Assembly: GCA_949710005.1 (NCBI GenBank)
Contig: OX453281.1
Coordinates: 25,446,362 to 25,510,361, forward strand
Reading direction: 5' to 3'
Source of the DNA: Ricordea florida
Taxonomy: Eukaryota; Cnidaria; Anthozoa; Corallimorpharia; Ricordeidae
Length of the DNA stretch: 64,000 nucleotides
The position numbers and the translations under genes are program-made. Below the pieces are notes generated by a model. The model was given only the letters and a program-made list of their open reading frames with translations. It was not told where the DNA came from and did not search any database. Positions within the stretch are counted from its first letter, which is position 1. Each line of letters begins with the position of its first letter. Of the stretch, positions 31,116 through 36,104 are shown one piece after another.

Positions 31116-34100
31116 ATGTTTCCATCGTCAATGGCTTCCCCTAAAAAATGTCACGTCTGTTGTTGCAAATCGTCGTCGCGCTGGTATAGTATTGTTGAGA
31201 ATATTGTGGAAGACTTGAGGAATTGTTTTAACGTGGAAACAACGTGCAATGGTGCGTGTTTGTGTGCCTCTTGTCGGCGAAATTTGACGAGATGGCAACG
31301 AAGTTGCGACGAAGAAAAAGAAAAATATTTCGTAAAAGCCCAATCTCGAGGAAAGGCATTTGTTAACAGGGTAACACTAGCTCAACAGAACCGGAGGCTT
31401 GCCGTAAAAAATATCCCCGAAACAAAAACAGCCCCAATATCGTTGCTGCTATGTTTACCGGAGGTCGTGTTGTTAGATATTTTCAGATATGTTGGTATCG
31501 CAGATATTTGTAACTTGAGACTGACGTGCCGGTATGTAAACACAATTTGCGCGTCTAACTATTTGTGGAAATTTCTGTTGGAACGTGACTTTCCAGAAGC
31601 AATTCCCTTTCTAAATACAGTGCTGTCAGCGTCCTTAGCAGCTTACAGATTTTTGTACTCGGCTACGCTCTCGTCGAAAAAAGACCAAATAAGTTACCGC
31701 AGGCAAATAGGTGAACTTGAACGTCAGTTTCGCGAAAGGGAGAGCAAATTCTTGGTGGAAAACGCGGAATTACAACAACACGTCGACAGCCTGCAGTCAA
31801 AGCTATTTACCTTGCAAACTGACCGAGATCCTAACACCCCAGTCAGCAAACTTCAAGAACAGGTAAACCGTAATAAACTAATTTAACTCACCCAAAAACC
31901 CGTTCGCCCGGAACCCGGGATGTGACGAACGTCGAGAAGTACGTATTGGCTCGGCAGTAGATATATGAAATGAAAAATATGCCATGGGCGATAACAGGTT
32001 TATATATTTGGTGTTTGAAAGCGGCTTTTACTATGGGCGAACGACCGGATTCCCCTGTTGACTGAAAATGGTTGCAGAAAATCGTATACTATAAATCACA
32101 GGTGCTCTTTAGTCCCATAAAAGAAACCTAATGTTTGTGAAATAACAGTTTAAATCCCACTGTCTCATGTATTTAATATGTACTGCCTTACGTATTTCGT
32201 TGCATTGAACAACGAACTTGTCAGTGTAGGTGTTTCCTCGGGCGTCCGCATACTAACCTCTCCATAAACTTTTATTAAATTTGTTAATCTAATACTTTAC
32301 CACTCAACAATCTATGAAGAACACAAATTAGTTTTCTTTCAAGTGACAATGGAAATGTTAACTCTTTGCAAATAAGCTGAACTTATGGCTATTTGGCCAC
32401 ACTTGCACAAAACTAAGAAGTAGTACCGAAATAACTAAACCAGTACAATGCATGGTTCATGAAATCTGATTTTTGTTACAGCTTTTTGCTGGTTGAGAGG
32501 GAGTTAGTTTTTTCTGAGCAATATCTTGGCAAGATTTAAAAAAAAAACAGCAACAAAAAATAAATAATAATTGTGATATATTTTTATAAACAGGTATAAT
32601 GTTGATACTTCGTTCATTCCTCTGTTAGCAAAACTTGATAATAGTATCACCTTGAAAATATCTGTAAGTAACTTAAGGTTTGTTACCTGCAGGTATTTAT
32701 GAGTCTTGTCAAAAAGAAGACAGGGCAGAGTAATTCAGGCTTCATCTATGCAAACCAATCAAAAGGAAAGCCTATCAAGTTAATGTCAGTTTCCCAGCCA
32801 CAAACCGGAAGTTCATCTGCATCTTCTAGCACATTGAAAAAAAGGAGTCAAGTCATTGAGAAATTTGTAGAGAACGTAGCATCAGCAACAAAGGTGGCAG
32901 ATGATGTCATACATCAGACTGCAACATCGATTAAAAGAAAAAAGGATCGGTTTCTGAAGTCACTTTCGGAGGGAGGTCTGAACATCATACAGTCTTTTAC
33001 ACTTAAGCAGGTGAGTAACAACTACAAAGATGTTTTATTTGGAAAACAACATTGAAAATTTTCATTTGTTACGTGTGCATTTTGCAACAATGCAGAAAAA
33101 TAATTAACGAGTGTGAAGCCTGCATGAGTGTGTGCCATTATTTCAACTCTGCAGAACATTCTAATTTAATACAGGTTACCAAATACATAAAAAAAGGAAA
33201 TAATTTCACATAAAGTGATTGCCTACCATTGTACACTGTATGAGTATTAGAGAGTATAACAAAAACAAAAGCCTGTAACATTTTTGACATCAAAATAAAA
33301 AAAAGCTAAACCCACTGTTTGTCTGAAATTTATTATCACAAATGACATAACTTCTTTCAGGTTGCAGAGCTTAAAGCCCATATGCCCATGGAGATGTTAA
33401 GGATGATCAAAAGGACCTTTAGAGATGCTCTTGGTAAGCTTTTGAACAGTAAACCCTTGTCATTAATAGTATTTAATACCCAACAAAAGCCCATGTACAC
33501 TTTGATTAACACTCGCGATAAGTGTAGGTCACAAAAATATTAACAAAATTCAACAACGAAAATTGATTTTAAAAATGACTGGTGCTTGCTTGTCCCGTTT
33601 GAAGTCCCAGATTAGTAATTAAAGAAAGGGTAGAATTTGGGAAGCTGGGTGTACTGATCTGTTGAGCTTTCCAGCTTAGTATATTTCTTTCCCAAAAAAT
33701 TAGCCCTGCTAATAATTTTCCCTTTGGTTTACAGGATATGACATTTTTGGTTCTGAAAAAGAGATTCGAGGGCATTTAAAGTCTATGGAATTTGAGTATG
33801 AATGTGGGAATTTTGAAAGTTCAACTGGAAAGGATGTCTCTTTTGTAAGAGTAGCAGATGTATCTGATGTAGTGAAGAAATCTGTTAACGAACTGAATGA
33901 AAGTGGCTTTTTTGTGGAAAAGAGCAACATTCCAAAAAATTTGCTGTGGGTACTTCTCACAGGGGACAAGGGAGGGAAATCGACAAAGTTGCTGATGCAA
34001 TTTCTGAACTGCAAAGAGCAGCACTCCATTCAAACGGCCCGGCTGCTGGCTATATTTGAAGGCGACAAGGACAATCACCAGTGTATTCAGAAGGTTTTTG

Positions 34101-36104
34101 GTCCTGTTATAGAGGAAACAAAGAAAGTACTATCAAAGGTAACTGAATTGGACCTTAAGGTGGACCTTACAGAAAGCACAAGTCCAAGTAAGCAGCCTAA
34201 TTTTGAAATCAGAGGGATGGCAAACTGGCCGAAAGAGCTTCAAGAGTTATTCCGAAACTGCCAAAATGAGTATCACAGCCAAAGATGTTTGCTATGCCAG
34301 AAAACAGCCTATTTCAACTCACATTCCTCCAACTGCGATGCTAACAAGCCATCCAGTGCAAGTTATAGCATTTCAGAGTTCTGGCTCAGTCTTGGAGGGG
34401 ACTGGGAGTTCATAGCAAGGTTATTGGGTTTAACAGGGCCCAATGGAACTTTCTTTTGTAACTTCTGTCATGCTCAACTTAAAGATCTTGAGAAGGGGAA
34501 GCCTCATACTCCATGGTTGTTGCATCAAGGTGCCACTGCTAGTCACATACCTACCAAAAAGTTTCCTGTGCGTAGTTTTGAGTCAATCTTGTCTGATAAT
34601 GACAGATTTGTGAAAGGTGGTTCTGTAAAGTCAAAAGTCAACCAATTCCACAATTGTGAGAGCACTCCAGTCTATCAAGCAACTGGATCAGTTATTGACT
34701 CAGTGTCATGCATGCCCCTCCATTTGTCTCTGGGGCTTGGAAAGCAGGCACTTGAGCTGGTTGAAAGTGAAGCCATTTCACTGGATAACACCATTAAAGA
34801 GGCAAATGGAGAGGCATCCCCAGAACTGGTTGAGTCATTCCAGAAACGAGAGGAACTGATCTTGGACTGTGCCAATCTAGAAGAATTGTTGGAGAATGAC
34901 TATGAGGCCATTAATTCCACTGAAGAAAAGCTTCAGAGGTTTCTTGCCGACACAGCTCCTTGTCATCAAAAGGAAGGGCGAAGGTACAGTACAATGTGCA
35001 GAATGAAATTGCAAATGTCATCTGATAAATAAAATGATATAAAAGAAACCTTGTTGGAAACATATTATAAACATATTCTCCCTATGTAAGACAACTAAGG
35101 GTATTCTTAACATCAAAATTCCCTGTAGGGAAAACGTTTTCTCATATAAACGCTCACTAAATTTGTCTCAGGGGCAGGATTGACTTGGATTCCCAAGACC
35201 ATATAACAAAGGCCTCAATCGTGGTAACTGTCTGACGCTGACACAAATTAATAATAAATATGTTAATCTACAACGAGTAACTGATTTTCAAAATGGCCTT
35301 CATTTTTGTTGTAGGTTCACTACCCACACAGTGGAAGCTGTAAAAGCAAGGGAAAGGGCACGAGAACTTAAAAAGGGCAGGGATGAACAACAACACCAGG
35401 TGAAACAACATCAAGACCAGTTAAAAGCAGCAAAGGAACAATTGATTAATGTAGTTGCCAAAATACATCATTTGAAAGGGCCTTTCCAAAAGAGATTGGA
35501 TGGTGTACTAGAAAGGATGAATTTAAAGAGGCAAGTGTATCACAAAGAGGCTCTGGTTGGTAATGACGTTGCCAAAATTCTCCACCCTGAAAACATAGGA
35601 AAAATTGTGAATTGTTTCAAACCACTCAGAGTGAATCTTCAAAATGGAGAACATAAAGTTTTCAGTGATCAAAGAAGCATGAACAAGGTGTCAACATTAC
35701 TGACAAAACTTTCACAATGTTTCCAACTGTACTCACCCAGTACTCCTCTCTGTCGCCATGAGGTAGCCTTCCTTGCAGTCCGATGTGCTAGCTTTGGTCA
35801 CTGGTTCCCTATTAACTTTCCAAACACCAACTTGCTTCGAAAGTTTCATGTGTTAACTTTCCATGTACCTGAGAAAGCCATTTCCAAGCACACTGTGGGC
35901 ATGGAAGCTGAACACTGCTCTGAAAGTATACACCCAGTGGTCAATAGGCTTGAAAGGACTTATGCAACTACACAAAATACATGTGATCGGTTGGCTCTGG
36001 TAGTCAAGAGCCAGTGGCTTCAAAGCAACTCCACTCTGACAAATTTCAGGAAACCTAAACACAGAAACAGATCAGATGCAATTGTAATTACAACAGAAGA
36101 ATAG
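31116..36104 (+). CDS. Five-exon gene: Cys-rich module, F-box, coiled coil and transposase-like C-terminal half
   Basis: Exons 31116-31862, 32693-33010, 33361-33433, 33735-34983 and 35315-36104; every junction is GT-AG with matching phase, giving about 1058 residues. The N-terminus has CHVCCC...CLCASCRRNL (likely zinc-binding). LPEVVLLDIFRYVGIADICN...LWKFLLERDF (exon 1) is a good F-box, which usually binds Skp1 in SCF ubiquitin ligases. A charged coiled coil follows (QIGELERQFRERESKF). Exons 4-5 resemble a multi-copy cnidarian transposase-like family: LTGDKGGKSTKLL, GGDWEFIARLLGLTGPNGT, FFCNFCH, PLHLSLGLG and, near the end, EHCSESIHPVVNRLE. I read Asp in GDKGG and Glu in ES-IH as possible DDE residues; this is inference. 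The family name is unknown to me. The intact frame argues for constraint or youth. Confidence 0.8.

Follow-up and report, generated by a model that had tools for sequence, protein, structure and literature searches.

Does a gene that joins an F-box to a transposase-like protein belong to its host or to a transposon? The question arises in a 64,000-nucleotide stretch of the corallimorpharian Ricordea florida (GCA_949710005.1, contig OX453281.1, positions 25,446,362 to 25,510,361 of the forward strand; hereafter the window), where a first-pass annotation had proposed one five-exon gene and had offered both readings. The F-box is a domain that normally links proteins to the cellular ubiquitin machinery. 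Our analysis favors the second reading: with a probability of roughly 0.7, the gene belongs to a Chapaev-group cut-and-paste transposon that is autonomous and has been active recently; in its spliced transposase a RAG1-like DDE (Asp-Asp-Glu) core would follow a Cys module, an F-box and a candidate coiled coil, and the F-box would recruit an SKP1-cullin-F-box (SCF) ligase. Membership in the Chapaev group would place the element within the RAG1-related CACTA-Mirage-Chapaev-Transib (CMCT) assemblage, as a distant relative of RAG1, the antibody-gene recombinase, which has an N-terminal zinc region, a RING with ubiquitin-ligase activity and a DDE core. The ends, 4-bp duplications, copies, intact frame, F-box and core motifs of the element can be read from the genome sequence itself, and coordinates are collected in Table 1.

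We searched the whole genome (537.8 Mb, 48 contigs) for further copies. Exon 4 gave 21 genomic matches; 13 of them, the window's included, span the whole exon with an identity that rounds to 100%, and these lie on 9 contigs. Nineteen copies were examined, that of the window and those in 18 fetched stretches (given L numbers below). In blastn comparisons of the fetched copies with the window (alignments of at least 80 bp), 15 of the 18 shared a left end at 30974, and 11 shared a right end at 38335-38338; the left end in the other copies extends two bases beyond the match with the window copy. Of the 19 copies, 11, all of them fetched, could be followed to both ends, and every one of these has CAC..GTG termini and the 13-bp terminal inverted repeat CACGAGCGTTTCA. 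Each of the 11 is flanked by a perfect 4-bp target duplication of a different sequence (CGGG, CGCT, GGGG, ATCC, ACCC, AGCT, AGTG, AGAG, GTCT, ACGT and ACAG). For the 7 other fetched copies, one end or both could not be located, partly owing to unread bases (781 in L009; 2,550 in L016). Empty sites were sought by joining the flanks of the 11 two-ended copies and comparing them with the window and the fetched stretches, counting only alignments that span the site. Such alignments came from 3 of the 11 copies (L017, L019 and L023), in two cases only against repeats around themselves. The flanks of L019, joined with one copy of the 4-bp duplication, match the window without a gap, and the window therefore holds an empty relative of the L019 target site (Table 1).

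The F-box exon lies inside this mobile unit. A search with exon 1 returned 20 matches, every one at a copy of the element (the window, the 18 fetched copies and one more place on contig C1); one match, on the contig of L022, falls upstream of the part that was fetched. An exact left end adjoins 17 of the 20, and the left end next to the window copy differs at 2 positions. An F-box match was present at 18 of the 20 places, the remaining two being truncated there, and none of the 29 scored candidates was a free-standing host paralogue of exon 1 at an E threshold of 0.001. Among the best 150 of 257 F-box-like genomic matches, 18 are at this element, and the genome has many other F-box genes. With the inverted repeats, the 4-bp duplications, near-identical copies and an internally deleted family, this placement bears out the suggestion that a transposon carries its own F-box. 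The full frame is kept in 8 of the 19 copies (the window and L009-L015). As to the others, L021 has one stop, L017-L020 are without most of exon 5, L022-L026 are broken or partial, and L016 has unread bases upstream of its exon-1 part. The alignments of L013, L016, L025 and L026 all break at window position 37623, which suggests an insertion or rearrangement shared by part of the family.

Several features point to recent movement. L011 and L012, full length and on different contigs, show no differences at aligned positions. L017-L020 represent an identical 5,829-bp deletion derivative that is without window positions 35415-36961; they are identical to each other yet carry four different duplications, a signature of a non-autonomous form that was mobilised in trans. 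The identity of L011 and L012, together with four identical derivatives at different duplications, therefore argues that the family moved recently and that some of its members did so in trans. L018 is inserted at a signal-recognition-particle RNA gene (L018 1524-1819; Metazoa_SRP, 248.8 bits), which marks the host as an animal. Selection was assessed in the eight intact copies only, which differ by 14 synonymous and 13 non-synonymous changes over 681 and 2,493 sites; the ratio of non-synonymous to synonymous rates (dN/dS) is about 0.25 (binomial p = 5e-4), a value drawn from small numbers and from copies with shared ancestry. Synonymous and non-synonymous differences numbered 6 and 5 in exon 1, 3 and 2 in exon 2, 4 and 3 in exon 4, and 1 and 3 in exon 5, with none in exon 3. 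Because the ratio is 0.25, we conclude that the gene was constrained until recently, exon 1 included. The decayed copies L022 (12 synonymous, 31 non-synonymous) and L024 (19 and 41), left out of the count with the other non-intact copies, gave ratios of about 0.7 and 0.6 by hand, as little constraint as dead copies would be expected to show.

Joined in phase, the five exons give 1,058 codons followed by TAG with no internal stop, in agreement with the intact gene first described. All four introns are GT-AG (donors GTAAAC, GTGAGT, GTAAGC and GTACAG; acceptors ending CTGCAG, TTTCAG, TTACAG and TTGTAG), and the seven copies L009-L015 have the identical five-exon layout, GT and AG at every junction, and an open frame. 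We infer that one spliced protein would be made from the five exons.

The C-terminal half of this protein matches the Pfam model DUF1280 (PF06918) over residues 356-508 (E = 3.8e-21; 76 bits against a cut-off of 25). This is the half that the first-pass annotation had likened to a multi-copy transposase-like family. DUF1280 is described as the Chapaev transposase domain and is placed beside RAG1 within the RNase H-like superfamily (PMC3985635). Chapaev elements are marked by target duplications of 3-4 bp, by termini of the form CAC..GTG and by the motifs C(2)C, LH and H(4)H (PMC4079192). The wider CMCT clade and RAG1 also have C(2)C and H(3-4)H (PMC12730594). We found all the diagnostic motifs: D457, assigned as the first acidic residue by its place within the DUF1280 match, D602, C621-x2-C624, LH at 708-709, H974-x4-H979 and E999. 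As a yardstick we used a RAG1-like gene of the same genome, L046, a 969-codon open frame that matches RAG1 (5.3e-77) and a RING finger (2.3e-8). A second copy of it (G000:C5:18269945-18271819) scores nearly equally, and a third place is broken. The spacings D602(18)C..C and H(4)H(19)E of the F-box protein are those of L046 (D643-18-C..C and H-4-H-19-E), a joint pattern that occurred in 8 of 20,000 shuffles and that was picked after both proteins had been seen.

The F-box reported earlier in exon 1 was recovered by Pfam at 9.2e-10 on the whole protein (PF12937) and at 1.3e-10 on exon 1 alone (PF00646, 3.9e-10). The Cys-rich N-terminal module is likewise present, as C-x2-C...C-x2-C (C12, C15, C50 and C53); its pattern, judged by eye, resembles the N-terminus of L046, and it is possibly a Chapa-type zinc finger. 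Of the coiled coil announced by the first-pass annotation, the helix is predicted at residues 188-235 and the coiling stays a candidate: in the AlphaFold2 model of exon 1 the block-mean predicted local distance difference test (pLDDT) is 58-79 over residues 191-240, the most confident stretch of a poor model with an overall mean of 44. Pfam gave no RING finger in the F-box protein and did give one in the L046 control. Against PDB sequences, the best matches of exon 1 were to F-box only protein 4, at non-significant E values of 0.21 and 0.26.

Table 1. Features of the F-box element, its empty target site and the RAG1-like yardstick. Positions are those of the window, except for L046.
Feature	Position	Strand	Remarks
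Whole transposon	30972-38335	+	about 7.36 kb; from common blastn ends and duplications
Left terminal inverted repeat	30972-30984	+	CACGAGCGTTTCA in other copies; window copy has 2 mismatches
Right terminal inverted repeat	38323-38335	-	TGAAACGCTCGTG on + strand
Exon 1	31116-31862	+	Cys module, F-box, predicted long helix
Cys-rich N-terminal module	31149-31274	+	C12-x2-C15 ... C50-x2-C53, read from sequence
F-box	31446-31577	+	residues 111-154; PF12937/PF00646 above curated cut-offs
Predicted long helix, candidate coiled coil	31677-31820	+	residues 188-235; AlphaFold2 single-sequence model
Exon 2	32693-33010	+	linker; in-frame ATG = residue 252
Exon 3	33361-33433	+	DUF1280 match begins here
Exon 4	33735-34983	+	DUF1280 and transposase core: D457, D602, C621-x2-C624, LH 708-709
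Exon 5	35315-36104	+	H974-x4-H979, E999, stop codon; best blastp segment with L046 falls here
Element tail	36105-38335		2.2 kb; several minus-strand frames, 69-158 aa
Empty target site (paralogous) of copy L019	4518-4960	+	434/443 identical, ungapped
RAG1-like gene L046	124-3033 (G000:C15:3040850-3043950)		open frame with RING and Cys-rich N-terminus

We propose that the core would cut at the CAC ends by means of D457, D602 and E999. Most likely, the F-box would bind SKP1 and so bring a cullin-RING ligase (SCF) to the transpososome, where the most likely substrates would be the transposase itself or chromatin at the donor and target sites; ubiquitylation would then lead to turnover of the complex or opening of the site. 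In this scheme the F-box would fill the post that RING holds in RAG1 and some Chapaevs, an adaptor replacing a stand-alone ligase. A wider idea, which we offer only tentatively, is that RAG1-related transposons keep needing ubiquitin-ligase function and that this lineage swapped its RING E3 for an F-box that borrows the host SKP1-cullin ligase. An F-box in the position of RING suggests that ubiquitylation is useful to the transposon itself. If the proposal is correct, this would be, to our knowledge, the first transposon whose transposase is an SCF substrate receptor, and the F-box may target host silencing factors or turn over the element's own post-integration complex. A young element with several unbroken copies would also be a system in which a role of ubiquitylation is directly testable.

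A number of results weigh against this reading. The window copy has no 4-bp duplication (its flanks are CCGT and CGCG), and its first bases are altered, AG standing in place of the CA of the other copies whose left end was found; either this edge was altered after the insertion, therefore, or the copy arrived by another route. AlphaFold2 models of exon 4 (pLDDT 34) and of exon 1, made without an alignment, were too poor for a fold search. The RAG1 core model (PF12940) gave no Pfam match up to E 10, a range in which HMMER filters drop most matches above about 0.1, and the core retrieved no RAG1 chain among PDB sequences, the best match being an irrelevant GTPase (E = 0.34). By blastp against L046, the best segment covered H(4)H-E with a weak E of 0.044, a second (E = 0.50) held no motif, and a third (E = 0.66) held C(2)C; a global alignment of the two brought the H-E end into register but not the D602/C(2)C motif. 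Because the exon-4 model is unusable and neither Pfam nor PDB sequences gave a RAG1 match, the assignment as a transposase rests on DUF1280 and the motifs. The DDE core that had been read tentatively is thus favored by DUF1280, C(2)C, LH, H(4)H and the acidic residues, and its alignment to the RAG1-like protein is weak. No Pfam model was significant for the Cys module; a FAM60A-like zinc finger was considered for it, on matches below threshold (E = 0.08-0.81). On the same side are two alternatives, one concerning the F-box and one the splicing of exon 1.

The alternative that survives best is that the F-box is kept only as an interaction or dimerisation module without an SCF ligase, which we regard as unlikely and still deserving of some weight. 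SKP1 binding is read here from sequence only, and some F-box proteins act outside SCF. Opposed to this, the domain scores far above both Pfam cut-offs and has the LP start typical of SKP1-binding F-boxes. Related enzymes, moreover, have a ubiquitin-ligase RING in the same place (PMC4411706).

Slightly less probable is that the same transposon yields separate proteins: a short F-box/Cys protein from a message polyadenylated within intron 1, and a transposase that starts in exon 2, with the fusion absent or made part of the time. The signals for separate products are at hand: AATAAA stands at 31872-31877, directly past the intron-1 donor, an in-frame stop follows 8 codons beyond that donor, intron 1 is long (830 bp), and exon 2 has an in-frame ATG at its base 7 (residue 252). 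Nonetheless, the intron has a good donor and a good acceptor and a phase-0 junction, and these are retained in the 7 other intact copies.

We think it improbable that the core comes from another CMCT lineage (Transib, CACTA, Plavaka or ESTA). The C(2)C and H(3-4)H motifs, being common to the whole clade (PMC12730594), would permit such an origin, but DUF1280 is reported as a Chapaev model (PMC3985635), and the LH motif, the CAC ends and the 4-bp duplication fit Chapaev (PMC4079192). Finally, a domesticated host gene with a captured transposase core, the other reading of the first-pass annotation, would account for an intact five-exon gene with dN/dS below 1 and is very hard to reconcile with a gene that travels with its terminal inverted repeats to 20 places, with 4-bp duplications and internally deleted derivatives.

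Beyond the gene, the tail of the transposon gave no Pfam matches above cut-off among the frames tested, and its minus-strand frames are possibly a second, convergent gene. A RAG2-like gene was considered for this region and rejected: six frames had no kelch match in Pfam, and no in-phase exons could be assembled by eye. The left-end word occurs 51 times genome-wide, comprising 17 exact words, that of the window copy and 33 others, 30 of them one variant word. These 33 extra words, with 2 mismatches, prompted us to consider a short miniature inverted-repeat transposable element or a sister family, and we judged them a coincidence. In the two that were opened (L047 and L048) the word lies inside a longer repeat, with 87% identity across 1,346 bp, and no inverted repeat matching the word was found in either stretch. 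The repeat in L047 and L048 is Polinton-like, with integrase-like and capsid-like frames in L047 (open reading frames read by eye). Viral contigs gave 7 pattern matches and no relatives of the element.

Directly to the left of the element, window positions 30150-30836 (minus strand) hold a Harbinger-like transposase remnant (DDE_Tnp_4, E = 8.5e-4, below cut-off), to which the frame at 29390-29851 (minus strand) may also belong. Just past the right end, at 38412-38624, an 18-nt repeat centred on TCGAGCTCGA occurs seven times. A 1,263-aa open frame at 13062-16853 (minus strand) has, from its translation, the look of the endonuclease-reverse transcriptase of a long interspersed nuclear element. 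Rfam and tRNA scans of the 64-kb window gave no matches.

A second young F-box repeat family is present in the same genome at L049 939-1406 (G000:C4:25949400-25954400), L050, L051 and L052. Its F-box frame of 155-157 aa (PF12937, 2.6e-10) is followed by a weak match (E = 0.05) to CxC7, the cysteine cluster of KDZ transposases. L049 and L050 share 99.9% identity across 2,888 bp, and for L051 and L052 the figure is 99.7% across 2,486 bp; no terminal repeat of this family was found. Upstream in L053 is the word QTDRKSCGVF, presumably Ulp1-like. Zebrafish F-box::CxC7 genes, reported as host captures, resemble the L049-L052 family and may be transposon-borne. Were our proposal for the Chapaev-type element correct, this second family would make use of an F-box a recurrent strategy.

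How does the element compare with systems already described? Among the literature titles and abstract openings listed, with Repbase outside the search, we found no transposon-borne F-box transposase; no paper joined Chapaev with an F-box, and only PMC4411706 joined Chapaev, ubiquitin ligase and transposon. An F-box-bearing Chapaev-type transposon, as this one appears to be, was accordingly not met with in print within that search. Its likeness to Chapaev lies in the CAC..GTG repeats, the 4-bp duplication, DUF1280, the DDE residues with C(2)C, LH and H(4)H, and the Cys-rich N-terminus. The difference is the F-box, since described Chapaevs have a Chapa zinc finger, to which two subgroups add a RING (PMC4411706). 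In RAG1 and those two subgroups the RING follows the Chapa domain, and the authors infer that it is ancestral and was lost elsewhere (PMC4411706). The Chapaev3 elements Merrow, Garfield and Conan share the wider superfamily and the diagnostic motifs (PMC4079192); their duplications are 3-bp TWA, whereas those found here are 4 bp long and of varied sequence.

With RAG1 and RAG1-like elements (ProtoRAG, TransibSU) the protein shares the order of a Cys module, a module of ubiquitin-ligase type and a DDE core, but it has no RING, no RAG1 Pfam match and, in the six tail frames, no RAG2-like kelch. Host F-box genes with captured domains of transposable elements (TEs) have been reported as F-box::Mos1-HTH in Caenorhabditis and F-box::CxC7 in zebrafish (PMC12062965), and a screen in the same paper gathered 820 F-box proteins that also carry domains from TEs or viruses, a set that could include members of the present family (PMC12062965). 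Those captures resemble our protein in uniting an F-box with a transposase-derived domain (PMC12062965). They differ from it in being host genes with a transposase fragment, whereas here a mobile element has an F-box and the complete core motifs. The direction of that recent report would thus be reversed: in place of host F-box genes capturing pieces of transposases, a mobile element owns the F-box.

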